Below, in pieces: positions 7,729 to 31,200 of a DNA stretch of 64,000 nt. The notes beneath the pieces were generated by a model, which was given only the letters and a program-made list of their open reading frames with translations, ran no database searches and had not been told where the DNA came from. The stretch spans positions 1,573,001-1,637,000 of the forward strand of contig NC_015573.1 of assembly GCF_000214705.1 (NCBI RefSeq), read 5' to 3'. Position 1 is the stretch's first letter, and every line of letters starts with the position of its first letter. The position numbers and the translations under genes are program-made. Source of the DNA: Desulfofundulus kuznetsovii DSM 6115. Lineage in GTDB: Bacteria > Bacillota > Desulfotomaculia > Desulfotomaculales > Desulfovirgulaceae.

Positions 7729-8414
7729 TCTATGACAGCCCACCCGTCTGGACCAGTTGGATTTTGAAGTGGAACACGATCTCCCGGTTGTGAGCGAGAT
7801 ACAGTACTTAGAGAGTTGGACAACCAGGAAAACAAATCCCGGAAACGGAGTCCAATTAACTTAAGCGGTTCGCGGACAGCAATTTGTCGTAAGATTTCCA
7901 TATTAGCCCCTTCTACACCGACAGCAAAAAACATAAACGCCTTTGATGTTTCGCCCTCCCTTACTAGACTGGCTGCTCTCTGCCAGGAATCGGTGGGGGC
8001 ACCATCTGTAATCATAAATATCCACGGACGGTAATAAGAAATACCATTTTGTTTATAGATGTTTTTCCGTTGGTTAATAAGTTCAATACCCCTTTCAATA
8101 GCTGCTCCCATTGGCGTATCTCCGTATGCTTGAAGTTTTGGGGGATTAAATTTATCGCAGGTTTGGAAGTCAGCTTCTATTCGCACTGGACCAAAGCTAA
8201 TTATTGCTACTTCTACAGTTTTAACTGCTTTTTCATCGGCCATTAACTCATCTTTAAACGTAATTATTCCGTTGTTCAGCTCTTCAATGGGTCGGCCAGC
8301 CATAGAGCCAGATGTGTCAAGCAATAATAAACAAGGGCAACGTGGTGCTGGGTTCTCTGCAAATTCAACAGCTGAAAAGGGTATCTGATTCATTTCATCA
8401 AAGTACTCTCTCAT
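7725..8414 (-). CDS. yegL: VWA-domain protein, TerY/YegL-like
   Basis: A 229-residue protein that is essentially one von Willebrand A domain. The metal site is intact: DTSGSM at 33-38, the threonine in GDTPMGAA and aspartate in ITDGAPTD. TerY-type VWA proteins pair with a PP2C phosphatase and a kinase in a phosphorylation-signalling triad linked to stress and tellurite-resistance systems. ATG at 8414 has GGAAGGGGAAGAACC upstream. First gene of the three-gene operon; no other ter genes are nearby. Confidence 0.88.
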
Positions 8415-8534
8415 GGTTCTTCCCCTTCCTGCTTGATTTATTAAATAAGTTGTCAAAGATGGCTCTGGTATCGGCTTCACTTAATTGCTTCATAGCTAAT
8501 CACTGGAATAAAGATATATATTTCCGTTCTGATT

Positions 8535-10130: not shown

Positions 10131-11171
10131 TTATATCCAACCTTCCGAACGTAACCGATCTGTAGCAATCTCTATTTGCGCGGGGGTAAACCGGCGTTTC
10201 CTTGGTGCCCAAGCATATACGGCCTCAATTAAAGCTTCAGGGTCCTGTAATTGCTCCTTCGTTATCAGCCAGTGTACCGTTGAAAGCAACTCAAGGCCAA
10301 AAGGAGTCTCGAAACCTTCGACCAAGCGGACCACACGCTCAAAGCGTGCCCGTGTTTCGATGTTTTTTTCGAGGAAGGCCTCAGCATCTCGCACTGCACC
10401 TGGTACTATAGTCAATTGCTTACCTGGTACATCGCCGCCATCTTTATAACCCACAATTAGATACCCTTCGATGGCGTGCAATACATGGCGCAGGTTCTCT
10501 GCGTATGGCCCATAAGGCGCTTTTACAAAGCGCAGGCGCAGTGGTTCTCCAGAAGCTTGCAGGAAATACATCAGCTTATGGACTTCCAGTAAAGTAATAA
10601 CTGGGTCCAGCAAAGCAGCCCGGTAACGATTTATCAATCCTACCAATGCGGCACGGCCAGGTGTCATTTTTGGTATCTCACGTGAATTATTAACTCTAAT
10701 ATCTGCTGGGGTATCTCCAGGCTCAAACACCTGCACATCAACGTTCGGTAAAGTTGCCAACGCACGCTCAACGAGAGGGCGCACTTCTTTCCAGTCAAGC
10801 CCACCCAGCCCGCTACCCAAAGGTGGTATAGCAACAGAGCGAATGTTGCGTTCACGTAATTCCTTTACCAAAGCGGTAAGTCCAGCTTCGATGTCCTCGA
10901 TACGGCTCTTGTTGCGCCAATGGCGCTTGGTCGGAAAATTGATGATGTAACGCGGCCAGGTCAGTCTCCCCGTATCAAAAACAAACATGCGGCCAGGCTG
11001 TACCTCTCCACGCCGACAAGCCGCAACATACGCCTTGAAATTTTCAGGGAAAGCGTTCTTAAACTGAAGCGCAATACCTCGTCCCATCACGCCTACACAG
11101 TTAACAGTGTTGACCAGGGCTTCAGCTTCAGCTTGCAGGATGTCACCTCTCACATATCTAATCATTGCCAT
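10131..11171 (-). CDS. darG: DarG-like antitoxin: macro-domain DNA ADP-ribosylglycohydrolase
   Basis: A 346-residue two-domain protein. Residues 1-155 are a macro domain with the ligand motifs VNTVNCVGVMGRGIA (20-34) and PPLGSGLGGLDW (116-127). Residues 165-346 match the DarG C-terminal domain, which binds and blocks the toxin. The macro domain removes ADP-ribose from thymidine in DNA. ATG at 11171 follows GGAGGGTACA. It lies 14 bp downstream of darT in one operon that ends at the terminator near 10050. Confidence 0.93.
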   Translation of the reverse strand: MAMIRYVRGDILQAEAEALVNTVNCVGVMGRGIALQFKNAFPENFKAYVAACRRGEVQPGRMFVFDTGRLTWPRYIINFPTKRHWRNKSRIEDIEAGLTALVKELRERNIRSVAIPPLGSGLGGLDWKEVRPLVERALATLPNVDVQVFEPGDTPADIRVNNSREIPKMTPGRAALVGLINRYRAALLDPVITLLEVHKLMYFLQASGEPLRLRFVKAPYGPYAENLRHVLHAIEGYLIVGYKDGGDVPGKQLTIVPGAVRDAEAFLEKNIETRARFERVVRLVEGFETPFGLELLSTVHWLITKEQLQDPEALIEAVYAWAPRKRRFTPAQIEIATDRLRSEGWI

Positions 11172-11185
11172 TGTACCCTCCTGTC

Positions 11186-11833
11186 TTAAAAATACCAGTC
11201 TGGACGGATCTCCACAAATGGCTGGTATTCGCTTCCGGTCAATACCTGTAACACTCGCTTTTTGATACGTAAAGATTTTACTCCAATGCGCCGGACAAGA
11301 TGCCAGGGGAAGAAACTATATACCAGAAACTCGGCCTGTTTCCCCTCTTTGATCTGCTCGTCATGAAAATTTTTAGCCGCCACCGCCGTCCAGTCTATTT
11401 CCCCAAGTTGGTCTAGCCGGTTGCGAAACTCAGTGTAAACGGCCCCCGCATTGGACAGGGTGAACGCCCAGCGTTGGCCTTGACTTTCAACCCACCTTAC
11501 CGTTTCATACAGATCAGCTTCCAGATGGATGATCGGCTCTTGACCACCATGATAATTCAATTCTGGATGATTACCACGGTGGAGTAAGTACAACATGATT
11601 GAACGAGGACAGAAATAAAACGGTACATATTCACCTACACAATCTTGCGGGTAGCATTTAACCGGCAAACTAAGCCGCCGTTGCTTGATAGTGCTCATGC
11701 CAATAGACGCTACCGGTCCGCCCCGCGCAATCATTTTTGCGTCTGACCATAAGCCGCCGTCTTTGATTATAGAAGGCAGGTTATTTATATGCGTAATATG
11801 ATAGATATGTATCTGGGTGGGTATAACTTTCAT
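11186..11833 (-). CDS. darT: DarT toxin: DNA ADP-ribosyltransferase
   Basis: A 215-residue protein of the DarT (formerly DUF4433) family. Visible family features are the N-terminal NAD-pocket region IYHITHINNL (10-19), the loop IARGGPVASIGM and the catalytic glutamate E168 in KQAEFLVYSFFPW. DarT transfers ADP-ribose onto thymidine in single-stranded DNA and blocks replication; DarTG systems act in toxin-antitoxin stability and phage defence. Start supported by AAAGGGAAGAAGAC. Confidence 0.93.
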   Translation of the reverse strand: MKVIPTQIHIYHITHINNLPSIIKDGGLWSDAKMIARGGPVASIGMSTIKQRRLSLPVKCYPQDCVGEYVPFYFCPRSIMLYLLHRGNHPELNYHGGQEPIIHLEADLYETVRWVESQGQRWAFTLSNAGAVYTEFRNRLDQLGEIDWTAVAAKNFHDEQIKEGKQAEFLVYSFFPWHLVRRIGVKSLRIKKRVLQVLTGSEYQPFVEIRPDWYF

Positions 11834-13031: not shown

Positions 13032-15473
13032 TTACTGCCTGTGGCCAATTTTTAAAAATCTGCTCAGGTCAACCCCCTCCAGCACGGCCCTGGCAAAGTC
13101 CCGCGCCTCTTCTTCCACCATGTCGCGCCAGGAGACCGGCGGGTTGTCCTCCAGCGCGCGGGCGATGTCCCCCGGCAGGCCGCCGAAGTCGGGCACTTTT
13201 ACGGACCGCGCTATCTTTTCCACGACGGCCGGGATTTCCAGTATCTCCAGGATACGCCTTTCGGCCATAGCCCTGAGTACCGCGTCGAAACGTTTCCGGG
13301 CTTCGTCCAGGACCACCTCTTCCGGCGGCACTACCTTTTTGGCCAGCCCGTGCTCGGCCAGTTTCCTCTCGATCAGCCCGATCAACTGCTCCGGCGTCAG
13401 CGCGTTCAGCTCAACCCGGTTCCCCCGTTTACCGTCCCCCGTGAGGAATTCGAGTTCGTCATGGGGCAGGGTCTCAAGCACCGGCTTGTGCCACCCTTTC
13501 TTCAACGGCACGCCTTCCGGGTCTTTTTCCAAGCCCATCTCCACCGCGTCTTTGTACCGCAGCCCCAGGTCTATCACCGTGACCGCGTTCCGGGACGTCC
13601 TGGTTTCTTCCCGAAGCGTCCTGGCGATTTCCAGGCCGTTGATGTCCAGATCGTGCAGGCACAGCACCACGATGTCCTGCTTTTCGGCCATAGCCAGGAA
13701 GTCTTTGGCGGCCCGGCTGGCGTAGCCTTCACCGGCACAGATGCAGAGGTCGTATTTTTTGTCCAGCCCAGCAGCCTTCAACACCGGCAGAATGCCTTTC
13801 TTCTCGACATACAGCACCTTGTTATACAAGTAGTCCGGTGCCGTATAGTCAGCGACCTCCCTTGTGCCCAGGGGGATTTCCTGGCCGGTATGTGGTTCCA
13901 CCGCTATGCCCCGCGGGTCATAGTACAACCCTTCAAGGGGACCGTATATTTCCTGGTATTCTGTCAGGAGGCCGGGCGTGAAATAATTATAGTCCAGTTC
14001 CCTGCTCGTGTACTGCTGGATAAGTGCCCGCACCTGGTAGTACAGGCTCCTGGCGCTGTAGGGGTACCTGCCGCCCCCGCTGGCTTTTTCCACGGCTTCC
14101 GGCAGGACGGCGAACACCGCTTCCTTCAGCGTTGTCGCCTCTTCCGGCCCGCCGCAGCTTCCTGCCTGGACCGCCCTCCTGACGCTGTTGACCGCCCTGG
14201 CTACTGCCTCTCCAGCGGCCTGCACGACGTCCACCGGCAGGTAGGGCTTCTTGTCCCGGCTGGTGTATTCCACGCCCGGCATGATGACGTGAACGGCCAG
14301 GAAGAAACCGGACTCATACCGGGACTTCAGCAGTTCTTTCAGGTAGCCGTGTAGCCCCCAGCTATCCGATTTGCCCAGGAAGTTGCTGTTGAACAGCGGG
14401 TTGTACGTCCCGGTGAAATTTAAGCCGGTCACGATGTGCTTTCTCTCCGCCGGGGCGTAGTAGACCTCCAGCACGTACGGCCTGTCGTCCCAGGTATAGC
14501 CTTCCTTCCTCACGTACCGGCCCTCAGCCTCAACCCCGAAGAGCTGCCGCGCCCTTTTCGCCATGTTTTCCCTGCCCACCCCGCCCAGTTTGGCCGGGGG
14601 CACCGGGCGGGAAAGTATTTTCATGGTCCGCAGGAGGCCGGTGCAGGCATCCAGGGCGGCCTTTCGTCCCTGGCTCTCTTCCAGAAAAACCAGGTCCCGG
14701 ATGCGCTTGACCGGACAGCTTTTAGCCGCCTGGCCTGCTTTTGCCCCGGAAAGGCCGACGAAGTACCGGGAGATAAACTCCCTCACGGTCAGATCCTCCT
14801 GCCCGGCCACCATAACCGCCAGGTTGAACAGGGATTCAGCGTCGAACCAGTGAGGCGAAACGGGGGCTTCCGCCGGGTATTTCTCTACATCTCCCACCCT
14901 CTGGACACACCTTCCCGACAGCTCAAAGGTGGCGTGGGGGTTAAATAAGACGGCTGCCGCAAAAGTGCTGCAGTTCAGGCTCACGGGTACCGGTACGGTT
15001 ACTGAGAACCCCGGCTTTATGGGTACCGTTTCCAGCACCGGGTTTACTCTTATCTCCCCCGTGGACAGGGGCCGTACCGTGACCGTTGCTCGCTGGCCCC
15101 CGCTCTCCAGGACAACCGGCTTTTCCGGGGCAAGCACGTGAGCCATGCCGAAAACGGTCTTCAGGGCGTTTCCTAAGTAGCCCCGCGTGGGCCGCTTCCA
15201 GGCCAGCTTACTGCTTGCCCGCACGCTGAAGTCCAGGATTTTGTTCAGCAGATCCTGAATGTCCGCACCGGGACCGTTGTCTCTGATGGAAAGGAAAGGC
15301 TCGGCAGCGATTTCAATCACCGGCGCTTTGTTTGCCTTTTCCGCCTCGTCCAGGGCGTTGTCAACAAGCTCCTTTAATATCGCTTCCCCGAACCTTTCTT
15401 TGTTTACACCGGTCGCCAGGACCAGTTCAGCAGGCTCAAAAAACTCTTTTGTGCGCGGAAATGTGTAAATCAT
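13032..15473 (-). CDS. Fused type IIB DNA topoisomerase (Topo VI/Topo VIII-like, B and A parts in one chain)
   Basis: An 813-residue protein. The N-terminus is a GHKL ATPase: N-box KELVDNALDE (34-43), G1 RDNGPG (64-69), G2 RGYLGNALKT (97-106). Residues 325-415 resemble a TopoVIB transducer. The C-terminal third resembles TopoVIA/Spo11: winged helix with catalytic tyrosine in SARSLYYQVR (Y478 or Y479) and a TOPRIM domain (E557 in VEKKG, D608 and D610 in LHDLDINGL). Single-chain B-A fusions define Topo VIII of bacterial mobile elements. It could relax or decatenate element DNA, which is inference. It overlaps the upstream small gene by ATGA. Confidence 0.85.
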   Translation of the reverse strand: MIYTFPRTKEFFEPAELVLATGVNKERFGEAILKELVDNALDEAEKANKAPVIEIAAEPFLSIRDNGPGADIQDLLNKILDFSVRASSKLAWKRPTRGYLGNALKTVFGMAHVLAPEKPVVLESGGQRATVTVRPLSTGEIRVNPVLETVPIKPGFSVTVPVPVSLNCSTFAAAVLFNPHATFELSGRCVQRVGDVEKYPAEAPVSPHWFDAESLFNLAVMVAGQEDLTVREFISRYFVGLSGAKAGQAAKSCPVKRIRDLVFLEESQGRKAALDACTGLLRTMKILSRPVPPAKLGGVGRENMAKRARQLFGVEAEGRYVRKEGYTWDDRPYVLEVYYAPAERKHIVTGLNFTGTYNPLFNSNFLGKSDSWGLHGYLKELLKSRYESGFFLAVHVIMPGVEYTSRDKKPYLPVDVVQAAGEAVARAVNSVRRAVQAGSCGGPEEATTLKEAVFAVLPEAVEKASGGGRYPYSARSLYYQVRALIQQYTSRELDYNYFTPGLLTEYQEIYGPLEGLYYDPRGIAVEPHTGQEIPLGTREVADYTAPDYLYNKVLYVEKKGILPVLKAAGLDKKYDLCICAGEGYASRAAKDFLAMAEKQDIVVLCLHDLDINGLEIARTLREETRTSRNAVTVIDLGLRYKDAVEMGLEKDPEGVPLKKGWHKPVLETLPHDELEFLTGDGKRGNRVELNALTPEQLIGLIERKLAEHGLAKKVVPPEEVVLDEARKRFDAVLRAMAERRILEILEIPAVVEKIARSVKVPDFGGLPGDIARALEDNPPVSWRDMVEEEARDFARAVLEGVDLSRFLKIGHRQ

Positions 15474-16430: not shown

Positions 16431-16504
16431 CCACTTCCATTTTAAGTCTGCATATTGCTATTGTCAATACAATAGCCCTAAAGACCGGGTTTTTCGTTCG
16501 AGTT

Positions 16505-16544
16505 TAATAAAAAGGCCGGGCTGCAAGTCCTCCCGGCCCAAATC
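16505..16544 (-). terminator. Terminator after the ardC-RNase H operon
   Basis: GGGCCGGGAGGACTTGCAGCCCGGCC stem-loop followed on the minus strand by TTTTTATTA. Confidence 0.8.
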
Positions 16545-16958
16545 TCAAGCGTACTTCCTTGCCGCCCGGCAGAGCATGTCGGCCTGCCGGTTTCTTTCTC
16601 TCGGTACCCACTGAAACCAAACGCTGCCGATCAGTTTTGCCAGCGCTGCCACCCGCCGGATAAACCGGGCATATTTCCCGCCCGGTCGGGCACCAGCGCG
16701 GACCATCCTGACCAGCGCCATGCAGTCGGTAAAGACCACCACGTGCTGGTACCCCTTCTTGACTGCCCACCTCAAGGCCCTTATGACCGCCTGAAACTCC
16801 GCTTCCAGGGAATCGGCGGCCTTTACCCGGCCCTTCCACCGGCGGGTAAGCTGGCCGTCAACCCTGGCCTCGTAGCCCCCATAGGCGGCACCGTTCCGGG
16901 GCAGGTGGGAACCGTCGCAGTGGATTTCTACATAACAGGCGTTACAGGCGTTTCTCAT
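16545..16958 (-). CDS. RNase H-fold protein
   Basis: 137 residues from ATG at 16958, which overlaps the ArdC stop (ATGA). RNase HI-type residues are visible in order: aspartate in EIHCDGSHL, glutamate in EAEFQAVIRAL, aspartate in VVVFTDCMALV and aspartate in RNRQADMLC. It should cut the RNA strand of RNA-DNA hybrids, perhaps replication primers of the element. Coupled to ardC and ended by a strong terminator. Confidence 0.85.
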   Translation of the reverse strand: MRNACNACYVEIHCDGSHLPRNGAAYGGYEARVDGQLTRRWKGRVKAADSLEAEFQAVIRALRWAVKKGYQHVVVFTDCMALVRMVRAGARPGGKYARFIRRVAALAKLIGSVWFQWVPRERNRQADMLCRAARKYA

Positions 16959-17803
16959 GCCGCCCGCACCGCCTCTTCTCCCGCCGCGCCCAGGATAACG
17001 TCCAGCACCTTTTCCACGTCGGCCAGGACGCCCATCACGGCCTTCAGGGCCTTCCGGTCGTCCTGCCCGGCGTAGTGCCGGATGTATTCCCACCCGTGCC
17101 AGATGTAGCCGGAAAAGCCGTACATCTCACACAGGACAGCGGCCACCACTTCGGCCACAATTTCCTGGTCCGCGTGCTGGCCCGGCTTTAACCCGCCCGG
17201 CTTCACCTGGTGGTGGACGGCGTGGGCCAGCTCGTGGAAGAAGGTGTGCGCGTCATGGGTGGTCAATACAATTTCCCCTCTGGTGGGGCTGAAGTAGCCG
17301 TAATACCCTCCCACGAAAGGTTTGTATTTCACGTCACCCACGAATTTCCGGGCCACATCGAACAGGGGCGGCGGCTCCGGGGGAGTATAATCCGCTTCCG
17401 GCAGGGGTTCACCCTCCGTGTCCTCATACCGGAACACCGGCACACACCGGAAGCCGGTGATGACTACCCGCTCACGCTCCACTTCCCGCTCTTCGCCGGT
17501 CTCCGGGTCCACTTTCCGCTCCTTGACAGTCTTCTTTTTGGTCATGGGTGCCAGGATGTAGAACGCCTTAGCCCCCTTTTTAACGTGCCGCCCGGCTTCT
17601 TCCCACTGCCTGTAGCCCCTGGCGTCCTCCGTCCCGGCCAGGTACATCAGCAGCCGGTTGCCCAGGCTCCACCTGTCGGACGGCCTCTCGTACCCGGCCT
17701 TCGCCCGGATGACCGTCCGGGCTACGGCGGCGGGCAGGTCTCCGGTGCGGAACATTTCTAAAAGACGGTTCAAGGCTTCTCTCGCTTTGTCGGTAAGTGT
17801 CAT
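16955..17803 (-). CDS. ardC: ArdC-like antirestriction protein with metallopeptidase domain
   Basis: 282 residues. The N-terminal part (about 1-130, with SLGNRLLMYLAG and ARGYRQWEEAGRHVKKGAKA) matches the ArdC single-strand-DNA-binding domain. The second part is a zincin-like peptidase with HELAHAVHH and downstream glutamate in AEVVAA. ArdC proteins coat incoming single-stranded DNA and protect it from host restriction after transfer. The start codon overlaps the stop of a 12-codon leader (MGRAGIGLPRVR) that begins in the hairpin element at 17.85 kb. Confidence 0.9.
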   Translation of the reverse strand: MTLTDKAREALNRLLEMFRTGDLPAAVARTVIRAKAGYERPSDRWSLGNRLLMYLAGTEDARGYRQWEEAGRHVKKGAKAFYILAPMTKKKTVKERKVDPETGEEREVERERVVITGFRCVPVFRYEDTEGEPLPEADYTPPEPPPLFDVARKFVGDVKYKPFVGGYYGYFSPTRGEIVLTTHDAHTFFHELAHAVHHQVKPGGLKPGQHADQEIVAEVVAAVLCEMYGFSGYIWHGWEYIRHYAGQDDRKALKAVMGVLADVEKVLDVILGAAGEEAVRAA

Positions 17804-17805
17804 CG

Positions 17806-17878
17806 TACACGGGGCAGGCCTATCCCGGCCCGCCCCATTCCCTCCTTTCCGTGGAAATGGTTTGGGCCGGTCGGCCCT
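17806..17878 (-). promoter_or_regulatory. Hairpin leader element, copy 1 (before ardC)
   Basis: On the minus strand CCGGCCC-AAA-CCATTTCC pairs with GGGAATGG-GGC-GGGCCGG, with AAAGGA in the loop and the leader ATG in the 3' arm. A second hairpin, GGGGCGGGCC with GGCCTGCCCC, competes for the same bases. The 12-codon leader ends in a TGA that overlaps the ardC ATG, so ardC is probably translated by coupling. Confidence 0.7.
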
Positions 17879-17885
17879 GAAAATG

Positions 17886-17917
17886 ACAAGGACGGTCTCT
17901 TTACAGGACCGTCCTTA
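17886..17917 (-). terminator. Hairpin downstream of the rpn gene
   Basis: Perfect 10-bp stem AAGGACGGTC/GACCGTCCTT; the following T tract is weak. Confidence 0.5.
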
Positions 17918-17951
17918 ACTTACAAATTTTTATTTTGCCTGTAAGGGAGTG

Positions 17952-18938
17952 TTACTGCGGCAGCACACGGGCTATAATCTCGCCAGCTTCTTCCGGCGTC
18001 CCGGCGTCAAGCAGGCTGTCGAAGAGCTCATCAAGGGTCCCGACGTCCTTGACCTGCCGTATCTTATCTTCATAGTCGATCCCAAACTTCTTCTTCAGGT
18101 ACCGGATAACGGCGCCCTGTTTTGCTTCTGCCATACCTTCCGCTTTCGCGCCCGCCACCATGGAGATCTCGTCCCGGATGGCCTTCTCCCGCAACTCATA
18201 CAGGCGGCGCTCCAGCTCGCTCTTTCTAAAAACTTCTTCGACGGTCAGGGCTTTCTTGATTGCCGGGTTCTTTTCCGCAATCACCCTCAACCCCTCCCCT
18301 TCCAGATTGTTCAGGTACATCAGCCACGCTTCCAGCGGGTCGTCCGGGTTCCACTCGCGTCTCCGCACCTTGTTCAGTTCCAAAAAATGAATTTCCAGGT
18401 GGTCGTTCATCGGTTCCCCGGTCTCGATGTCCCGGATACGGAAGACGTGGTGGTACCGCTCGTCGGTAAACCAGTCGAATCCCAGGATGTTGACGGTAAT
18501 TGTCCTGCGCAGTTCCGAGAATTGCTGGCCGGATTTCAGCTGGCCGCCGTACAGCCGTGCCCAGTAAAACAGCGTCCGCTTGTCGATATCGAACCTGTTG
18601 GCAATCTGTATTTCGACATTGATCAGCGACCCATCAGCCGCCTTCGCCAGCACGTCCAGCCGGGCGGCCCTGTCGAGAAGGTATTCCGGGTCGATTTCCC
18701 TGTCCAGCAACTCCAGGTCGGTCAGTTCTCTGCCGGGCGGTAATTTGAACACCGCATTGAGGAATCCCAGCAGGGCTTCCTTACCTTCTTCGGAGCCAAA
18801 GATGCGTTTAAAAGCATAATCGTTTGTGCGATTAATGCCGTTCATCCGCCCTGCACTCCCCTTTCTTGAATTATAACTGCTTTCTTTTTTCTTTGCAATT
18901 TCCATGTTTGCGGGGCGGACCCATCCGGCCCGCCCCAT
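17952..18938 (-). CDS. Rpn-type PD-(D/E)XK nuclease family protein
   Basis: From MNGINRTNDYAFKRIFGSEE (codon 32) onward this is a recombination-promoting nuclease / transposase-like protein: nuclease core with DRAARLDVLA and NVEIQIANRFD, long helical middle, basic C-terminus. Such proteins cut DNA and promote RecA-independent recombination; many are mobile. The 31-codon N-terminal extension begins at the ATG inside hairpin element copy 2 with AGAAAGGAGG upstream and is in frame. ATG at 18845 (GGGGAG upstream) is the alternative start. Confidence 0.85.
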   Translation of the reverse strand: MGRAGWVRPANMEIAKKKESSYNSRKGSAGRMNGINRTNDYAFKRIFGSEEGKEALLGFLNAVFKLPPGRELTDLELLDREIDPEYLLDRAARLDVLAKAADGSLINVEIQIANRFDIDKRTLFYWARLYGGQLKSGQQFSELRRTITVNILGFDWFTDERYHHVFRIRDIETGEPMNDHLEIHFLELNKVRRREWNPDDPLEAWLMYLNNLEGEGLRVIAEKNPAIKKALTVEEVFRKSELERRLYELREKAIRDEISMVAGAKAEGMAEAKQGAVIRYLKKKFGIDYEDKIRQVKDVGTLDELFDSLLDAGTPEEAGEIIARVLPQ

Positions 18939-18976
18939 TCCTCCTTTCTGGAATGGTTTGCGGGCCGGTCGGCCCT
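18908..18976 (-). promoter_or_regulatory. Hairpin leader element, copy 2 (before rpn)
   Basis: Stem CCATTCC/GGAATGG with loop AGAAAGGA; outer arms CCGGCCC-type; second hairpin GGGGCGGGCC/GGTCCGCCCC. The leader MGRAGWVRPAN is in frame with the nuclease gene. Confidence 0.7.
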
Positions 18977-18978
18977 GG

Positions 18979-19323
18979 TCAACCGCAAAACCGCTTCATG
19001 TATTCCTTTACCGACGGCACACTCTCATACAGGCCGGGGTTCTCCCGGAGTTCGGCCTTGAAGGTGCGCCGGTTGGCCGGGGCAACCCCGAATTTCCGCA
19101 GGCACTCGGCTCTGACCAGACAAAACAGCCTGGTCTCTTCCACCCTGGCCTGCTCCCTGAACGATTCTAACGTATTCCGCAGGGCAATTAGGGCTTTCTC
19201 TTCCCCGTGCCTGCGGATATAATCTTGAAACCGGTCCCGCACGTCGGCTTCGGTAATGTCCTTACCGGCTTTTTGTGCGTACCGGGCGGTCTCGCTAATT
19301 AGCCGGTTGATTGATTTAGTCAT
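18979..19323 (-). CDS. Unrecognised 114-residue protein
   Basis: Charged, mostly helical protein (ISETARYAQKAGKDITEADV, IRRHGEEKALIALRNTLE). No known domain. The ATG overlaps the stop of a 12-codon leader (MGRAGKRPVPET) from hairpin element copy 3, exactly as for ardC. Confidence 0.7.
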   Translation of the reverse strand: MTKSINRLISETARYAQKAGKDITEADVRDRFQDYIRRHGEEKALIALRNTLESFREQARVEETRLFCLVRAECLRKFGVAPANRRTFKAELRENPGLYESVPSVKEYMKRFCG

Positions 19324-19327
19324 GTTT

Positions 19328-19398
19328 CTGGGACGGGCCTTTTTCCAGCCCGCCCCATTCCCTCCTTTCCGTGGAAATGGTCGGGCCGGTTGGCCCGA
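19328..19398 (-). promoter_or_regulatory. Hairpin leader element, copy 3
   Basis: Stem CCATTTCC/GGGAATGG, loop with AAAGGA, second hairpin GGGGCGGGCT/AGGCCCGTCCC. The leader stops on a TGA that overlaps the downstream ATG. Confidence 0.7.
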
Positions 19399-19406
19399 TT
19401 ATCCGG

Positions 19407-19607
19407 TTAACTCGCTCCCGCGCACTGCGGGCAAAGGAAGCCTGTCAGGTTGCCCCGGCTGTCAAAGTCGCCGTGGACTTCGTAATTGCCAAAGCGGTCC
19501 GGTCCGGCCCATTCGCTTGCCGGGCGCAGGCAGGCTTCGCAGTAGCCGCTCTTCTTAAACTCCCGTGCATCGTCCCCTTGTAGATAAACCGTATCGGTCA
19601 TTGTCAT
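19407..19607 (-). CDS. Small zinc-ribbon protein
   Basis: 66 residues with CEAC and CPQC pairs (YCEACLRP, FLCPQCAG), a likely single zinc ribbon. No named family recognised. It follows hairpin element copy 4, whose leader reads past this start in another frame. Confidence 0.65.
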   Translation of the reverse strand: MTMTDTVYLQGDDAREFKKSGYCEACLRPASEWAGPDRFGNYEVHGDFDSRGNLTGFLCPQCAGAS

Positions 19608-19611
19608 TCTC

Positions 19612-19676
19612 CCCGGGACGGACCCTACTGGCCCGCCCCATTTCCTCCTTTCCGAGTGAAATGGTCGGGCCGGTAA
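19612..19676 (-). promoter_or_regulatory. Hairpin leader element, copy 4
   Basis: Stem CCATTTC/GAAATGG shows a compensating pair change relative to copy 2. Second hairpin GGGGCGGGCC/GGTCCGTCCC. Leader MGRASRVRPG overlaps the downstream gene out of frame. Confidence 0.65.
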
Positions 19677-19681
19677 CCCGT

Positions 19682-19936
19682 TTACTGGCCTACTTTCACC
19701 GGAATGACTTCCTCATCCCGGCAAAAGTGTACCAGGTGGTCTCCATCCACGGCCCGCGCGTTCCATACGGCAATGGTGCCGCAGGCGCTGCAGGGACCGA
19801 GTTCCGGCCACGGCTGGGGGTCCGGGACTTTAAAAAACAGGCGGTCCTTATGCCACGGGGTGCGGAACAGCACCCCCGGCTTGATCCTCTCAAATTTCAT
19901 TCTTTCCGGGACGGACCTCCATCCGGCCCGCCCCAT
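19682..19936 (-). CDS. Small protein with CSAC zinc motif
   Basis: 84 residues if read from the leader ATG (MGRAGWRSVPERMKFERIK); 72 from the internal ATG at 19900. Contains PCSAC and, later, HFCRDEE, a possible zinc site. Function unknown. The leader is in frame with the gene, as for rpn. Confidence 0.6.
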   Translation of the reverse strand: MGRAGWRSVPERMKFERIKPGVLFRTPWHKDRLFFKVPDPQPWPELGPCSACGTIAVWNARAVDGDHLVHFCRDEEVIPVKVGQ

Positions 19937-19970
19937 TCCTCCTTTCTTGAGAATGGTTTGAGCCGGAAAA
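19904..19970 (-). promoter_or_regulatory. Hairpin leader element, copy 5
   Basis: Stem CCATTC/GAATGG extended by T-G and C-G pairs, loop AAGAAA; outer CCGGC/GCCGG arms; second hairpin GGGGCGGGCC/AGGTCCGTCCC. Confidence 0.65.
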
Positions 19971-19979
19971 GACCCGATA

Positions 19980-20222
19980 TTAATTTTCACGCACCCACTC
20001 GCGCTGGCGGATTACCTTCACTTGCCCGTCCAGACTTCTTATGACGCGGTAATCGCCGTGGCCGTACACCAAAACGTATGGGGATTTTGTGTACCCATAC
20101 GCCTTCAGGACGGCCTCTTCTGCCGTAGGTGCTTCTATTAGCATTTTTTCATAGCTATCCGTGTAACAGCTTATTTCGTACATAGTTCTAGGGCGGGACT
20201 CCCGGCAGCCCGTCCCTATCAC
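19980..20222 (-). CDS. Small unrecognised protein
   Basis: The core from ATG at 20183 (MYEISCYTDSYEKMLIEAPT) encodes 67 residues resembling small element-encoded proteins that read host input (VLVYGHGDYRVIRS). An in-frame GTG in hairpin copy 6 adds 13 residues. Its stop region overlaps the next gene's upstream part. Function unknown. Confidence 0.55.
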   Translation of the reverse strand: MIGTGCRESRPRTMYEISCYTDSYEKMLIEAPTAEEAVLKAYGYTKSPYVLVYGHGDYRVIRSLDGQVKVIRQREWVREN

Positions 20223-20263
20223 CCCCTCGAAAAGATTTTTGGGTGAAGGCGGGCCGGGCCGCC
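20190..20263 (-). promoter_or_regulatory. Hairpin leader element, copy 6 (divergent)
   Basis: Here the stem is TCACCC/GGGTGA and the leader start is GTG (MIGTGCRESRPRT), in frame with the gene. Sequence differs from the other copies but the fold is kept. Confidence 0.6.
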
Positions 20264-20270
20264 GGAAGTC

Positions 20271-20840
20271 CTATGCCCCCTGGATCAATTTCCACTCTCT
20301 CTCCCGCAAAGTCGAACGGCGCAGTTTAAACCTCATGCCGCCGCTTTCAAAGACCAACCGGCGCGGGTCAATCACGCGGAAAGTCCTTTCCTGCCGCCCG
20401 CTCCTGAAAGTGATAGGCTCAGTAAATTCGATTACCGCGCCCTTTACCAGCCTGGGGCGGGCCTTGCGGGTACGTATGTTCTCCCAGCACTTCTCCCGCC
20501 ACCGGAGGGCGCTTTCGTTGTCCGTGGGCGTCAGCAGCTTTAAAATGCGCTCCGGGCAGTCGTAGTAGTACGGGTGCATGTCCTCGGTCATGTCCTTGTA
20601 GCCGAAGTTGCAACCGTCCGGGGCGTTCGGGACGAACCTGAGAAGGCATACAATAGCGCTCACTTCCCGCTTTCCCGCGCCGTCTCCCATTTCGTAGGCA
20701 ATATAGGCGGTGCTCAAGTTGACCACGGCGCAGTCGATGACCCTACCATACCTGCCGTCATCCCGCCGGTAGTCAAACTCCTTTTTGAAAAACTCTTTAA
20801 TGCTTTCCCCGTGGTACTTCTGCGTAAATGTCCATCCCAT
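20271..20840 (-). CDS. DUF6927-like protein
   Basis: 189 residues starting MGWTFTQKYHG, a start typical of DUF6927 proteins found on mobile elements; the assignment is from memory of that N-terminus and is tentative. It has a compact mixed alpha/beta composition and a basic C-terminus (KLRRSTLREREWKLI). No function known. First gene of the hairpin-leader cluster, preceded by copy 7. Confidence 0.65.
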   Translation of the reverse strand: MGWTFTQKYHGESIKEFFKKEFDYRRDDGRYGRVIDCAVVNLSTAYIAYEMGDGAGKREVSAIVCLLRFVPNAPDGCNFGYKDMTEDMHPYYYDCPERILKLLTPTDNESALRWREKCWENIRTRKARPRLVKGAVIEFTEPITFRSGRQERTFRVIDPRRLVFESGGMRFKLRRSTLREREWKLIQGA

Positions 20841-20847
20841 AATCTCA

Positions 20848-20922
20848 AGGGCAGGCCCCCGGCGGCCCGCCCCATCTCACCTCCTTGAGTGAAGTGAGTT
20901 TGAGGCGGGCCGGGCCGCCTGA
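20848..20922 (-). promoter_or_regulatory. Hairpin leader element, copy 7
   Basis: Stem CTCAC/GTGAG with AAGGAG in the loop; outer arms GGCGGCCCGCC/GGCGGGCCGCC pair perfectly over 11 bp. The inner stem sequence is completely different from copies 1-5 but still pairs. Leader MGRAAGGLPLRL overlaps the gene out of frame. Confidence 0.7.
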
Positions 20923-20929
20923 GAAACAT

Positions 20930-20963
20930 AAAAGGCAACCCCTCAAAAAAGGGAGTTGCCTTT
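20930..20963 (-). terminator. Terminator upstream of the hairpin-leader cluster
   Basis: AGGCAACTCCCTTTTTTGAGGGGTTGCCT-type hairpin followed by TTTT on the minus strand. Confidence 0.7.
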
Positions 20964-20969
20964 AAATGC

Positions 20970-21056
20970 TCACGGTTTTTGTTTCTGCCGCTTGCCCAGC
21001 AGCAGTCTCATCACCAGGATCAAGACGCCGGTTTGACCCGCAAGGAAGACCAGCAT
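20970..21056 (-). CDS. Small single-span membrane protein
   Basis: 28 residues with one hydrophobic span (MLVFLAGQTGVLILVMRLLL) and a basic tail (GKRQKQKP). It follows DUF2442 closely and ends just before a terminator. An upstream in-frame CTG with GGGAGA could extend it by nine residues. Too short to classify. Confidence 0.45.
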   Translation of the reverse strand: MLVFLAGQTGVLILVMRLLLGKRQKQKP

Positions 21057-21091
21057 TTTTATCCGGTATATCGACCTCTCCAGTCTCCCGC

Positions 21092-21394
21092 TTAAGCAAA
21101 AGCCTCTTCGGGAAGCACCAGCGGTACGCTCTTCGCGTAAAGCACGTCCGGGTCGAGGTCGGCCTCATTCGGCCAGGTTACGGTCCCCGTTTCGGCATCG
21201 ACCTTCACCTGCCGGAAGAAAGCCCTGTCTTTTAAAGGCTCAAAGACCGGCCCCACCATAAACGGCCTTACATCGACCACCCTGTACTCCCCGTCGTCGA
21301 ACTCCAGGATAAGATACCGGTCCCCCACCGGGTAGGCGCTCCGGACCGCGTGGAGGACGCTTTTCACTCCCTGACCAAACACGTTACTTATCAC
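21092..21394 (-). CDS. DUF2442 protein
   Basis: 100 residues of the DUF2442 type: YLILEFDDGEYRVVDVRPFM followed by VKVDAETGTVTWPNEADLDP with the conserved tail. DUF2442 genes commonly follow DUF4160 genes, an arrangement suspected to be a toxin-antitoxin pair. The GTG start overlaps the TGA of the frame-restored DUF4160 gene (GTGA). Confidence 0.85.
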   Translation of the reverse strand: MISNVFGQGVKSVLHAVRSAYPVGDRYLILEFDDGEYRVVDVRPFMVGPVFEPLKDRAFFRQVKVDAETGTVTWPNEADLDPDVLYAKSVPLVLPEEAFA

Positions 21395-21671
21395 CTCTCC
21401 TGGGGCGGCCGCATCTTCACGATGGGTTCGCCCTTCTGCGCCCTATACCAGTTTTCCGTCAGCTCCCTGCCGTTTCCCCGCACCCAGTCGATAACCCGGT
21501 CCTTTATTTTTCCAGGCAGCTTCCCGCCAGGACCTCGCCGCCGGGTATGGAAACCAGCGCCTGGAAACCGGGAGCCAGGACGTGGACGTGGGGCGGCAGA
21601 TGGTCGTGATAGTACATGCAGATCTTGATCCCTGCAAACTCACAGATTACAGGCAATTTCGTCACTCCCAT
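21391..21671 (-). pseudogene. DUF4160 gene with a one-base deletion
   Basis: The first frame (KICMYYHDHLPPHVHVLAPG) is the DUF4160 core and ends early at TAA after SCLEK. One extra A in the run GGAAAAATAAAGG would restore KIKDRVIDWVRGNGRELTEN and then the normal C-terminus, ending exactly at the GTGA overlap with DUF2442. So the gene has lost one base in an A run, either in the cell or in the sequence. Confidence 0.8.
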
Positions 21672-21687
21672 TCTACCACAGACCGGT

Positions 21688-22305
21688 CTAACCGGCAAGG
21701 CGGACGCCCAGGGCGATCAGTCCCCTGTCGCCCTGCCGGTACTTGATCTCCACCATTTTACCCACCGCTCCGGCTAAAGCCTGGCCTGCGCCGTTTTTGG
21801 CGAACACGGCCACCTTCCGCCCGTCGGCACCCTCGCACCAGGCGCGGACCACACCCTGGTTCTTGCCCTGGCGCAGTTCCAGCACCTTGAACGTGCCGGT
21901 CTCGGTGCCGTCCACGGCGGTTTGGCCGTCCGGCTGTGCCTTTTGGTCCGGTTGCGCCTGCTCCCCGCCCAGCGCCTTTTCTACGACCGCTTCCAGCGCC
22001 TGGGTGTCCTTCCCGGCCTGTACCATCGCGGCCAGCAAGTTTGCCAGCGCAACGGCCCCGGTATGGCGGGCCTTCAGCGCCTCCAGTTTGGCCTCCGAAG
22101 CGGCGTACTCGGCCCGCGCCTGGTTGAGCTCTTCCCGGAGCTTTGCCAGCTCGGGGGAGCTGGTACGCTGGTTCGGGGGGATGGCCGCTTCCAGGGCCTT
22201 GATTTTTGCGTCCAGGTCGTAGATGCGGCACCTGGACGCATAGGCACGGTGGGCGGCGGTCTCTATCTCGGCGGTATTAATCAACACTCCCATAAGCTTT
22301 TGCAT
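21688..22305 (-). CDS. Coiled-coil protein of unknown function
   Basis: 205 residues. Residues 20-85 form a long coiled coil (ASRCRIYDLDAKIKALEAAI, SPELAKLREELNQARAEYAA). A Q/P/D-rich linker (QAQPDQKAQPDGQT) separates it from a beta-rich C-terminal domain (TFKVLELRQGKNQGVVRAWC). Ribosome site GGAAAGGAGAACCCCT. No family recognised. Confidence 0.7.
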   Translation of the reverse strand: MQKLMGVLINTAEIETAAHRAYASRCRIYDLDAKIKALEAAIPPNQRTSSPELAKLREELNQARAEYAASEAKLEALKARHTGAVALANLLAAMVQAGKDTQALEAVVEKALGGEQAQPDQKAQPDGQTAVDGTETGTFKVLELRQGKNQGVVRAWCEGADGRKVAVFAKNGAGQALAGAVGKMVEIKYRQGDRGLIALGVRLAG

Positions 22306-22404
22306 AGGGGTTCTCCTTTCCGGTATTGGAATTTAAAGGCCGCCGGGCGGCTTATCTGCCAGCGGCGGCCCCTCTCTTTAATCAGCTTACGGTCTGCCAT
22401 CGTA

Positions 22405-22668
22405 TTAAAACTCCCTGGTAACAATTAATTCCGGATACAAGCTCTCAATCTCTTTCGCAACTTTTTCAGCCACTTCTTTATTATCAAAAATAGCTATCCA
22501 GTCTTCGTTTTCCCCATAATCAACAGCGTGATATTTTTCCATCATTTCGTAAAATTTCTCATTAAACTCGTTGATAAGGTCTGTATCTGTATCCTCGTCA
22601 GTGCTAATAATCAAGAGATATTCCCCTTCAAGCGGATCGATTTCTTCAATTTTTATAAACTCGGACAT
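22405..22668 (-). CDS. Acidic 87-residue protein
   Basis: Strongly acidic small protein (IISTDEDTDTDLINEFNEKF, IFDNKEVAEKVAKEIESL). No family recognised; the charge pattern resembles DNA mimics or antitoxins, which is a guess. The start region is tandemly duplicated, so an upstream copy of the start encodes a separate 12-codon frame (MSEFIKLKCPSL). Confidence 0.6.
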   Translation of the reverse strand: MSEFIKIEEIDPLEGEYLLIISTDEDTDTDLINEFNEKFYEMMEKYHAVDYGENEDWIAIFDNKEVAEKVAKEIESLYPELIVTREF

Positions 22669-27651: not shown

Positions 27652-28488
27652 CTACGCCAGCCTGCCGCCGCGCAGCCGCAGGTGCAGCTTTTTCTTCTCC
27701 CGGTCGAAGGCGGTGACCACAGCCGCCACCCTGTCCCCCCGGCGGAGCACGCCTCTCAGTGGCGGGGGAGCTATGCCTACCACGCCGGGCTTGATCTCCA
27801 GGAACACCATTTTCTCAGCCTGCCCCACTACGGCACCGGCCACCACGTCCCCCCGCTTGTAGACCAGGCCCTCCCACGGGTCGGGTTCAGCGTCCACCAA
27901 GGACAGCTTCAGCGTCCCGGTCTGCGGGTCCACATGGACCACCTTCGCCTTCACCGCCTGGCCGGGGCGGAACAATTCCGCCAGACGGTGCGCCCTGCTC
28001 CGGGTGGCCAGCTTCCGGGGCACCTCCACTAAGACGCCCCCGCCCGCGTCCATCACCAGGGAGGCGGGCTTATTGGTCGCCGGGTCCGGCGGCAGGACGG
28101 CCTTCACCACGGCGTCGATAACCATGTCGGGCTTCAGCGCCTGGAACAGCCTCTCCTGGGCGTCCGCTATTGCCTCCCTCCTGGAGCAGGCCGCCACGCC
28201 GTTCCCCCTGTCCAGCCCCCTGATTTTGACCAGGACTTTTTGGCCCACGAAGCGGGGCATAAGGGAAACGTCAGCCAGGCCGGTCTCAGAGGCGGGCACC
28301 ACGCCCTTAATACCGTCCCCCAGGTCCAGCTCCCAAACTGCCGTGTCCAGGTTCTCCGGCCAGGTAACTTTCTCTACCGCCGCTTCAACCGGGACGCCGC
28401 GCTCCTTAGCGAAGAAGAGATATTCCCATCTGTCGGCCGCGGCCTCGAAACCTTCGGGTTTCGGAATGTTCGGAATGAATGCACTCAC
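27652..28488 (-). CDS. S1 RNA-binding-domain protein
   Basis: 278 residues with three S1-type OB repeats, clearest at residues about 115-205 (PDMVIDAVVKAVLPPDP, GQAVKAKVVHVDPQTGTLKL) and 210-278 (KRGDVVAGAVVGQAEKMVFL, RRGDRVAAVVTAFDREKKKL). It resembles ribosomal protein S1 without the ribosome-binding repeats. GTG start with GAAAGGGGAGAACTATT. On an element full of structured leaders an S1-like RNA chaperone is suggestive, but the link is inference. Confidence 0.75.
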   Translation of the reverse strand: MSAFIPNIPKPEGFEAAADRWEYLFFAKERGVPVEAAVEKVTWPENLDTAVWELDLGDGIKGVVPASETGLADVSLMPRFVGQKVLVKIRGLDRGNGVAACSRREAIADAQERLFQALKPDMVIDAVVKAVLPPDPATNKPASLVMDAGGGVLVEVPRKLATRSRAHRLAELFRPGQAVKAKVVHVDPQTGTLKLSLVDAEPDPWEGLVYKRGDVVAGAVVGQAEKMVFLEIKPGVVGIAPPPLRGVLRRGDRVAAVVTAFDREKKKLHLRLRGGRLA

Positions 28489-29187: not shown

Positions 29188-31200
29188 TCACTGGGCCGGG
29201 CCAAACAGGTCGTCGAGCCAGTCCCTGTCCTCGTCGCCGCCGGTGTCAGCAGTATCAGTCCTGCTTCCTTTCTTCTCGCCCCCGCGCTTCCTGTCCCTGT
29301 CCGGCTTCGGAGCCTCTTCTATCTCCGGCATCTCCGGCAGCTCAAGCCGGAAGTCTTTTTTCGGGGCCACGTCCGCCAGCGTGGAGGCCGCCAGCTCCTT
29401 TATCTCCTTCGCTTGCGGCAGTTCCTCCCAGCCCAATTTGGTCAGGTACAGGGGCAGGCACCAGCGCATCAGGCACACCGCCGCCATGGAGTCCATCCCC
29501 GCCAGCTCTTCAGGCTCCATCAAAGCCCGGCGGACCACCGTCTCCCGGCGCTTCGCAACGTCCAGCCGGTCCCAGGGCATGGTCACGTCTTTCGATTCGC
29601 TGACGCTGTAGACTGCCGCTTCCCCTAACTGCTGGGAGAAGTACGTGGTAGTCGTCCGGTCGTCGCCGCCTAGAAACAGCCTTACCGGGCAGTTGCCCGT
29701 GATGACTTCCAGTTCGTTCGCCCCGTATACGTCCGCTAGCTGCTTTACGCTCTGGAGAATGAACTGCACATATATCCCCAGAGACCGGGCAGTAGAGATG
29801 ATCTCCGTGAAGCCGGGCACCTGACCGATGTTGGCGAACTCGTCCAGCAAAAATCTGGTCGGGTTGGGCAGCTTCCCGCCGTACTCGGCGGCCAAGCCGT
29901 ACAAGCGCCGGAAGAAGAAATAGTAGAACGTCGCCAGCACCGGCTTCAGGTGACCGCTGTTCACCGGCAGCACGCAGAACAGTGCCGCTTTCTTGCGCCC
30001 TAAAACCGACAGGTCTATCATCTGCCCCGGCACCCCGGCCAGGAGCTTCGCCACCGGCTCCGCCCGGATCACGCCCAGTTTGGCCGTCAGGCCGGATACG
30101 GCGTTGTCGATGTTGCTGGATACCGCCCCGCGCCATTCTTCCAGCCCCTCCCTGGGCAGCCGCCCGGCCCGGTATGCGTTCTGGAAGCGTTCGTCAAGTG
30201 CTTCAATCGGCCACGCCAGCAGGGAGAGCACACTCCTTAAATGCGCCTGTTCCGGCGGGAAGTCGGCCCGGAGCAGGTAGACCAGGGCTTTCAAGAGCTG
30301 GATCTCTTTCATCACAAAGTACCCGCTGCTGTCCTTGGCCGCGTTGTGCACTATGGCCATCGCAAACGCTGTAATTTCCTCGTCGTCACGACACTCCAGG
30401 ACCGGGTTCCACCGGTCGCCCCATTCGGGATACTGGAGATTAAATACATACACGTCATAGCCCTGCGATTTCAACCACGGGGCCAGCAGGCACGTCAGCT
30501 CCCCCTTGGGGTCGGTCAGCACTATACTTTCTCCCGCGCAGGCCGCCGCAATAGCGTTTGGGACGACAAAGCTGTACGTCTTGCCCGCACCCGTCCCGGC
30601 GGCCACCATTACGTGTCCCGGCAAAGGCGGCTTCCCTTTGAGCGCGGGCTGTGCCCGCACGATTCTCCCCTTCAAACGGCCCAAAACGATTCCTCCACCA
30701 AACTTGTCGTCCTTTTTCGGCGGGCCAAACTCGCAGATGTGGGCTATGTCCCGGTCACCCGCCCACCGCCTGGTGCCCTTGGCCGCGCTGTCGGCCACCC
30801 GCAGGCCGTGGACGTGCCGCTCGTCGTGTAATTCTCCACCCCGCCCACGGGCCAGGGCCAGCACCACCCCGCCCAGTGTGCCCAAAATTAACCCGACCCT
30901 GGCCATCCGGTTAGCCGGGTCCAACCGATCCATCGTCATCCAGCCAGCTATGTCCAGGGGTACGGCGGGCTTCGTTCCTCCTAAATGCTTTAAAGTGTTT
31001 ATCAAGTCAGCCGCGTACCAGAAAGCCAGCGCCAGCCCCACCCCCAGGGCCAGGGGGAACAGGGCGGCAGCGGTCCGGCGGGAGTACCGGTACGCCCCGA
31101 AAGCCGCCGCACCCACCAGTACACCAACCGGGAGCGCTGCGACCAGGGCCAGCCCTGCAAGCCCTATGACTGCGAAGGTCGCAATTTTCACCTTGTTCAT
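29188..31200 (-). CDS. virD4: VirD4/TraG-family type IV coupling protein
   Basis: 670 residues. N-terminal membrane anchors (ATFAVIGLAGLALVAALPVG and a second pair near residues 45-75) precede the ATPase: Walker A AAGTGAGKTYSFVVPN around 206-221, Walker B FLLDEFANIGQVPGFTEI, and VQFILQSVKQLADVYG. Coupling proteins feed the relaxase-DNA complex to a type IV channel. It is the strongest transfer gene in the element; no relaxase or VirB4 is recognised near it. The charged C-terminus (RDRKRGGEKKGSRTDT) may recruit substrate. Confidence 0.95.
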   Translation of the reverse strand: MNKVKIATFAVIGLAGLALVAALPVGVLVGAAAFGAYRYSRRTAAALFPLALGVGLALAFWYAADLINTLKHLGGTKPAVPLDIAGWMTMDRLDPANRMARVGLILGTLGGVVLALARGRGGELHDERHVHGLRVADSAAKGTRRWAGDRDIAHICEFGPPKKDDKFGGGIVLGRLKGRIVRAQPALKGKPPLPGHVMVAAGTGAGKTYSFVVPNAIAAACAGESIVLTDPKGELTCLLAPWLKSQGYDVYVFNLQYPEWGDRWNPVLECRDDEEITAFAMAIVHNAAKDSSGYFVMKEIQLLKALVYLLRADFPPEQAHLRSVLSLLAWPIEALDERFQNAYRAGRLPREGLEEWRGAVSSNIDNAVSGLTAKLGVIRAEPVAKLLAGVPGQMIDLSVLGRKKAALFCVLPVNSGHLKPVLATFYYFFFRRLYGLAAEYGGKLPNPTRFLLDEFANIGQVPGFTEIISTARSLGIYVQFILQSVKQLADVYGANELEVITGNCPVRLFLGGDDRTTTTYFSQQLGEAAVYSVSESKDVTMPWDRLDVAKRRETVVRRALMEPEELAGMDSMAAVCLMRWCLPLYLTKLGWEELPQAKEIKELAASTLADVAPKKDFRLELPEMPEIEEAPKPDRDRKRGGEKKGSRTDTADTGGDEDRDWLDDLFGPAQ

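Follow-up and report, generated by a model that had tools for sequence, protein, structure and literature searches.

The window analysed here is a 64,000-nucleotide (nt) stretch of Desulfofundulus kuznetsovii DSM 6115, bases 1573001–1637000 of a 3,601,386-base single-contig genome. Its minus strand holds seven short elements, and a gene directly follows each one. The seven elements are real and are members of a large, strongly conserved family of structured RNAs. Each is probably a switchable ribosome-binding site resembling those of T4 genes 38 and 25, in which a hairpin bridges the distance between a remote Shine-Dalgarno (SD) sequence and the start codon; an integrative conjugative element would use this type of site for its establishment genes. 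The initial annotation, made from the letters of the window alone, had reported seven elements, and all of them are found where it placed them.

In the mRNA, the parts are arranged from 5' to 3' as a GC-rich upstream arm, a first hairpin (P1) whose loop contains or adjoins the SD, a second hairpin (P3), a few nucleotides, and the gene start. The seven copies are as follows.

17801–17878, minus strand: element copy 1, before ardC; SD core 17841–17845, P1 arms 17853–17860 and 17835–17842, P3 17809–17838, gene ATG 17801–17803.
18903–18976, minus strand: element copy 2; SD core 18940–18944, P1 arms 18950–18956 and 18935–18941, P3 18912–18936, gene ATG 18903–18905.
19321–19397, minus strand: element copy 3; SD core 19361–19365, P1 arms 19373–19380 and 19355–19362, P3 19329–19357, gene ATG 19321–19323.
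19605–19681, minus strand: element copy 4; SD core 19644–19648, P1 arms 19658–19664 and 19638–19644, P3 19615–19639, gene ATG 19605–19607.
19898–19976, minus strand: element copy 5; SD core 19938–19942, P3 19908–19934, gene ATG 19898–19900.
20181–20265, minus strand: element copy 6, a variant with a GGGGG SD and without an ATG leader; SD core 20222–20226, P3 20189–20218, gene ATG 20181–20183.
20838–20921, minus strand: element copy 7; SD core 20880–20884, P1 arms 20891–20898 and 20876–20883, P3 20848–20873, gene ATG 20838–20840.

The stems in the window include CCATTTCC/GGGAATGG and CCATTCC/GGAATGG. A covariance model was built from 16 copies of this genome, with P3 pairs only; the window copies, from which it was partly built, score 60.9–82.9 bits. 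Against dinucleotide shuffles, their P3 segments have z values from -2.0 (copy 6) to -5.3.

The best 150 of 178 model matches were aligned. Removal of one duplicate locus and three antisense matches leaves 146 copies, and 124 distinct segments remain once those with no start codon at the model end, with an open reading frame (ORF) shorter than 40 amino acids (aa), or with a duplicate segment are dropped. In these 124 copies, the SD ends 31–46 nt ahead of the start (mean 36.1), and in every one of them a hairpin folds within this gap. After the hairpin is looped out, 9–11 unpaired nucleotides are left in 71 copies and 8–12 in 90; in many copies with a smaller remainder, RNAfold adds outer pairs. 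P3 is followed by the start after 4–8 nt in 108 of the 124. Full-length matches span 68–94 nt, SD and start included. The mean z of P3 segments against dinucleotide shuffles is -3.57, with values below -2 in 88 of 99 copies. P3 was also considered as a terminator or attenuator, and this was rejected, as at least four T are found between P3 and the start in only one of the 124 copies.

The closest known mechanism is that of T4. As described in the available part of PMC3014915, the hairpin of gene 38 shortens the spacing between SD and AUG from 22 to 5 nt, and that of gene 25 shortens it from 27 to 11 nt; mutations support both hairpins, and probing also supports that of gene 25. Both sequence features of such a split site are seen in the present family: the SD is unusually far away, and a hairpin in the gap restores a working spacing, here from about 36 to about 10 nt. 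At about 36 nt ahead of the true start, the SD would be too distant to work. In the putative ON state, P3 would form and loop out the gap, and with about 10 unpaired nucleotides left the ribosome could use the SD for that start. That P3 acts as such a bridge is quite probable, and it is the firmest part of the interpretation. The initial annotation had recorded the second hairpin, which is indeed present, without noticing that it spans exactly the SD-to-start gap and is the strongest covarying feature.

P3 varies widely in sequence while its pairing is maintained. In the model alignment, all nine P3 pairs are changed on both sides. P3 cells are paired in 95.7% of cases, compared with 87.3% after shuffling, and the double changes number 77 against 11.3. 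When the partner column is shifted by one, the pairing of P3 falls to 61–74%. Examples of the arms are GGTACCGGC/GCCGGTACC (L116:5949), GGAATCGGGC/GCCCGATTCC (L129:15664) and GATACGGGC/GCTCGTATC (L118:5302). RNAalifold, given 16 or 150 copies, recovers P3 alone. A base-by-base table of triple covariation has register trouble in the commonest class and is not used as a count.

An arm-swap test compares the pairing of each copy's own arms with that of arms taken from other copies, in 99 copies less than 85% alike, with reversed arms as the control. P3 gives z -18.2 (control -6.0), the strongest value of all helices. The 5' arm of P3 can also pair upstream, which extends the P1 stem at the SD. 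This alternative helix (P2), formed by the upstream arm and the P3 5' arm, gives z -9.5 (control -1.5), and -8.7 (control -2.7) within subtypes. For P1, z is -5.2 (control -0.2). A self-hairpin of the upstream region (P0) gives -5.2 (control -3.6). These values support P3, P2 and P1, and support P0 and the outermost pairing, a:a', weakly. The earlier proposal that the stems are kept by paired changes thus holds family-wide, since own arms outpair those of other copies.

Because P2 and P1 both covary and P2 shares an arm with P3, two folds compete, as the initial annotation had suggested. The stacked P1 and P2 are here called the rod. Folding calculations in which P3 is forbidden place the rod below the P3 state in energy for 83 of 99 copies at 37 °C, with a mean difference of -4.5 kcal/mol. 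In the putative OFF state, the P3 5' arm would pair with the upstream arm, and P2 would be stacked on P1 with the SD in or beside the loop. The rod would exclude P3, so that SD and start stay apart and the SD is partly hidden. This OFF state is reasonably likely, though less so than the bridging role of P3.

A simpler device would be a plain repression hairpin or protein operator, in which the rod hides the SD, a protein of the element binds P1 or P2, and P3 is a by-product of a GC-rich palindrome. A stem of at least 4 base pairs is present around the SD in all 99 copies (a count that includes no chance control), P1 covaries, the rod is predicted as the ground state for most of them, and a gene for an S1-type RNA-binding protein lies nearby. 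Nevertheless, P3 covaries most, its position fixes the gap between SD and start, and without P3 the SD is 31–46 nt off. Plain repression is therefore unlikely.

The strand that folds can be judged from the wobble pairs. In the P3-fitted alignment, P3 cells contain 138 G-U pairs against 9 A-C, and this excess indicates that the folded strand is the sense RNA. The same count bears on the idea that the hairpins fold in single-stranded DNA and serve as a promoter or transfer signal for leading-region genes, like Frpo of the F plasmid. Some of the genes behind the elements would fit such a role, as ArdC, RadC and SSB are typical early products of transferred DNA, and hairpins of this kind could fold in single strands. 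However, the register to both SD and ATG is fixed and the wobble pairs favour sense RNA; on these indications a DNA signal is very improbable.

The initial annotation had treated a leader start codon and its peptide as a defining part of the elements. A mechanism built on it would have ribosomes initiate within the 3' arm of P1, using the leader ATG, open the hairpins while translating a peptide (MGRA...), and reach the gene by re-initiation or run-on. An ATG leader is present in six of the seven window copies and in 53 of the 124 copies overall, and 16 of the 82 leaders of any kind end 1–4 nt into the gene. In the window, the status given earlier to six copies holds: in copies 1 and 3 the leader extends 4 nt into the gene, giving an ATGA overlap, in copies 2 and 5 it is fused in frame, and in copies 4 and 7 it overlaps the gene out of frame. 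Copy 6, which had been listed as fused, has no ATG leader; its sole candidate, a GTG, overlaps the SD, which makes a leader start there doubtful. In the family as a whole, 42 of the 124 copies have no ATG, GTG or TTG 1–13 nt past the SD, and P3 persists in leaderless copies. The frames of the ATG leaders relative to the gene are random (16, 21 and 16 for frames 0, 1 and 2), and 23 of the 82 leaders are fused, while 36 end more than 4 nt beyond the gene start without fusion. Among 16 ArdC proteins with a recognizable motif, the N-termini are alike from the post-hairpin ATG onwards, with the SLGN motif 42–51 residues in; their leaders are fused in six, out of frame in seven and absent in three. 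ArdC translation thus seems, on this indirect sequence evidence, to start at the post-hairpin ATG. The leader peptide as a core feature was rejected, and translation through it is an improbable explanation of the family.

The hairpin-bridged arrangement was also searched for by a scan that uses no covariance model. The pattern consists of an SD core, 2–7 nt, a hairpin, 4–8 nt and an ATG. The hairpin must have 8 pairs or more, and no more than one base may be unpaired outside its loop; the ATG must open an ORF of 50 codons or longer, and no other SD may lie nearer to it. Within the window, the scan finds six of the seven copies (copy 6 is missed) and nothing else. The 47 loci fetched around model hits, 502,286 bases in all, contain 105 sites, distributed over 42 of the loci. 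Of these sites, 90 coincide with model hits, and 14 of the remaining 15 resemble additional copies on visual inspection. A further 14 loci, which surround S1 genes of 12 genomes and total 208,543 bases, have no model match at E<=0.001; 10 of them contain 19 sites. Fifteen chromosomal stretches from four genomes, 300,000 bases together, have no site. Omission of sites that are more than 80% alike or lie too close to the end of a contig reduces the 124 strict sites to 100. In these, the arm-swap values are -13.1 for P2 (control -4.3), -3.7 for P1 (control -0.7) and -3.5 for a:a' (control -1.9). The 18 most diverged sites still give z -4.7 for P2 (control -2.5).

Several points weigh against the interpretation as a switchable, hairpin-bridged site. 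The alignment is fitted to a model that holds P3, and its P3 pairing and its counts of G-U and A-C lean towards P3. Likewise, the scan selects P3 by design, and it recovers 90 of the 139 model copies in these loci. The permutations of the arm-swap test model relatedness incompletely, and the reversed controls are shifted for P3 and, in the scan set, for P2. The outermost pairing, a:a', reaches only z -2.1 in the 99 copies (control 0.9). P1 in the 18 most diverged sites gives z -1.8 (79 of 2000 permutations), which is insignificant on its own. The P0 region of the 100 scan sites is ordinary in stability (z -0.45); P0 as a free-standing upstream hairpin is unsupported by fold stability. In three related copies (L090:6795, L092:6293 and L010:9405) the model end has no start codon and a leader ATG opens a 9-codon frame; these are possibly a variant that truly uses a leader. 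The full-length minimum fold is the rod in 82 of 99 copies and contains P3 in 17. In nascent RNA extended up to the P3 loop, P2 is already formed in 98 of 99 copies, and a path estimate for leaving the P3 state, an upper bound, averages 18.9 kcal/mol; these nascent-folding and barrier estimates are rough and serve as a caution only. If the energies that favour the rod are right, most sites would be OFF without a helper.

Candidate triggers are a ribosome ending on the preceding gene, a protein, and ribosome standby. The first of these amounts to translational coupling: a ribosome that terminates on the upstream gene would disturb the upstream arms and let P3 form. Upstream ORFs of 60 aa or longer terminate near 124 of the 146 copies, in 83 cases no more than 30 nt away; in the window, a stop codon lies 0–9 nt ahead of copies 2–6. 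On the other hand, 63 of the 146 copies, including copies 1 and 7, have no such stop within 30 nt, the distance varies, and the upstream ORFs are mechanical calls. Coupling as the explanation is possible at a modest probability, and it is compatible with the switchable, hairpin-bridged site.

The genes behind the seven copies are as follows.

16955–17803, minus strand: gene after copy 1, the anti-restriction gene ardC, 282 aa with an ArdC N-terminal domain (Pfam ArdcN, E 4.4e-7).
17952–18905, minus strand: gene after copy 2, Rpn / PDDEXK_2 transposase-like nuclease (Pfam PDDEXK_2, NCBIfam TIGR01784), 317 aa counted from the post-hairpin ATG.
18979–19323, minus strand: gene after copy 3, 114 aa, no family found in Pfam and NCBIfam searches.
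19407–19607, minus strand: gene after copy 4, 66 aa, no family found in Pfam and NCBIfam searches.
19682–19900, minus strand: gene after copy 5, 72 aa from the post-hairpin ATG, 84 aa with the fused leader.
19980–20183, minus strand: gene after copy 6, 67 aa, with its stop codon 3 nt ahead of copy 5.
20271–20840, minus strand: gene after copy 7, DUF6927 protein, 189 aa (Pfam, E 1.9e-15).

Family-wide, Pfam was applied to 124 of 132 downstream proteins, eight near-duplicates being left out by hand. ArdcN is found in 20, RadC in 11, PDDEXK_2 in five, and MPTase-PolyVal and DUF6927 in three each; SSB, RNase H and others have single matches. The memberships total 64, and at least 60 of the 124 proteins have no Pfam match. 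In the available part of Val-Calvo et al. (PMC8708921), establishment genes, ardC among them, are described as needing rapid but transient expression. ArdC, RadC, SSB and the small proteins of unknown function likely constitute one establishment regulon, whose expression the family would co-ordinate. The post-transcriptional role proposed in the initial annotation for ArdC-type genes of the element is likewise likely.

Terminator-like inverted repeats, recognized by eye, are located at 17885–17918 and 20931–20964, upstream of copies 1 and 7. They leave little promoter room before these copies, which suggests read-through or antitermination.

Domains were scanned for in the window ORFs of at least 150 aa (30 of 84). 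The window encodes two integrases, an actin-like ParM-type protein, a primase-helicase and a coupling protein, and metabolic genes begin about 47 kb into it. These facts indicate an integrative conjugative element. The coupling protein and a possible protein partner of the elements are located as follows.

29188–31200, minus strand: type IV secretion coupling protein (Pfam T4SS-DNA_transf, E 8e-51).
27652–28488, minus strand: candidate trans-acting partner with S1 RNA-binding domains, 278 aa (Pfam S1).

The S1-like protein matches bS1 chains in PDB (E 5.2e-11, residues 125–304), and NCBIfam S1 models match it far under their cut-offs. Homologues at E<=1e-10 occur in 47 of the 113 genomes of the order: in 27 of the 33 genomes with elements and in 20 of the 80 without. 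Some weak homologues, located in open frames of 660–730 codons, are probably the host's own S1. The coupling protein is present in 28 of the 33 genomes with elements. For linkage, 46 S1 homologues were tabulated, after the 18 weakest of 65 (at or below 61.9 bits) were omitted and two fragments joined; the coupling-protein table leaves out the 22 weakest of its 74 matches. For 28 of the tabulated S1 homologues, the contig also contains a same-strand copy; the nearest copy is downstream within 12 kb for 26 of them and upstream for none, and it lies 2.1–2.4 kb downstream for 11. For the coupling-protein gene, the nearest copy is downstream in 14 cases and upstream in six (of 28). Three omitted S1 matches (G000, G026 and G090) are 19–27 kb upstream of same-strand copies. 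The 10 of 14 loci with diverged bridged sites surround further S1 genes.

It can be speculated that the element carries its own initiation system: the regulon would be OFF by default, and the S1 paralogue would unfold the rod so that P3 forms and a burst of establishment proteins follows. The linkage is incomplete, as 19 of 45 element contigs have no tabulated S1 gene (nine of these are shorter than 16 kb). Nor is a bridged site found in 31-kb stretches of two Brevibacillus plasmids with distant S1 homologues, where a plain SD precedes ssb. The association of S1 genes and elements may reflect a shared backbone only, and a role of the S1 paralogue is doubtful. The ArdC genes of two Alicyclobacillus plasmids have no hairpin; one has a plain close SD and the other a weak purine stretch.

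The covariance model has 20 matches at E<=0.01 in its own genome, in three regions. Related stretches in the other two regions have ArdC genes behind them in both cases and an Rpn-type gene in one. In the second region (L009 10105–12065), the Rpn and ArdC frames behind the elements are shortened and interrupted, so that this second element seems to be decaying. All nine genomes of the family have matches, and across the order, matches at E<=0.001 occur in 33 of 113 genomes; such a search of related genomes had been proposed with the initial annotation. The class-level search covers the same 113 genomes and adds nothing. In a sample of the phylum, 20 of 398 genomes match at E<=1e-4, including other classes; 15 of these 20 are classed only as belonging to the same phylum (families f31, f46, f85 and f145). 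Tandem clustering of copies is common. An exact-pattern scan of named genomes gives six records: Ammonifex, two Desulfofundulus, Desulfoscipio, Desulfovirgula and a Thermoanaerobacterales metagenome-assembled genome. These fall in Bacillota groups rich in thermophiles, as might be expected if the elements were RNA thermometers. However, the rod is still lower than the P3 state in 81 of 99 copies at 60 °C (mean -3.9 kcal/mol), and the energy model predicts no melting switch at such temperatures. A thermometer is very improbable.

Two exact patterns have no match in viral contigs, and blastn gives none for one element against plasmids or for the 3.1-kb cluster against phages. A search of positions 16500–22500 against Rfam at E up to 1 yields two weak hits only, far under gathering scores; at the gathering threshold, eight loci give group II introns only. 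No description of a hairpin-bridged family was found in the open-access literature searched, which most subscription journals lie outside. The available part of PMC2864571, on candidate structured RNAs, contains neither any of five organism and element words nor "Shine-Dalgarno". The family is therefore undescribed as such in the searched literature and Rfam, in agreement with the initial annotation. The basic trick is known from T4, and its proposed form as a switchable family in conjugative elements would be new.

Some known systems resemble the elements in part. In T4, as far as the available text of PMC3014915 describes it, the hairpins enhance two single genes, and the site of gene 25 is confined to close T-even phages; the present family is instead repeated, widespread in conjugative elements, and has an alternative fold on the same arm. 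The closest setting is that of EGeRS1 of pLS20-family plasmids (PMC8708921, in its available part), since both consist of GC-rich regions with inverted repeats, present in several copies, that precede ardC and further establishment genes in a conjugative element of Gram-positive bacteria. EGeRS1 is described there as 420–750 bp long, located upstream of the ribosome-binding site and before operons, with a shared branched fold. By that description it is set apart from elements of 68–94 nt that contain the ribosome-binding site and precede single genes, often right behind another. Translational riboswitches and alternative-fold leaders in Rfam likewise have two mutually exclusive folds at the ribosome site, but the present elements have no Rfam match and occur in several copies per element before unrelated genes. 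In hok of R1, a metastable plasmid mRNA, competing folds set the translatability of a mobile-element mRNA, as proposed here; unlike in hok, the fold here would also set the distance from SD to start, and would be common to many genes.

Within the searched open-access literature and Rfam, this would be the first family in which the distance between SD and start is set, and maybe switched, by a conserved RNA fold. For conjugative elements of anaerobic Bacillota it offers a sequence handle on their regulons, and it could also serve as a compact tool for studying ribosome initiation across a hairpin. Caution is needed with gene callers, which may choose a spurious fused leader start.

Elsewhere in the window, an 813-aa protein (13032–15473, minus strand) has, within a single chain, a region like topoisomerase VI subunit B and a TopoVI A/Spo11 Toprim domain, and resembles the fused Topo VIII of mobile elements. 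At 10131–11833 (minus strand), a Macro-domain protein lies beside a homologue of DarT, the thymidine ADP-ribosyltransferase that acts on single-stranded DNA, and the two look like a toxin-antitoxin pair of the DarTG type. A row of protein-kinase-like, PP2C phosphatase and VWA-domain genes (5018–9389, minus strand) adjoins an integrase.

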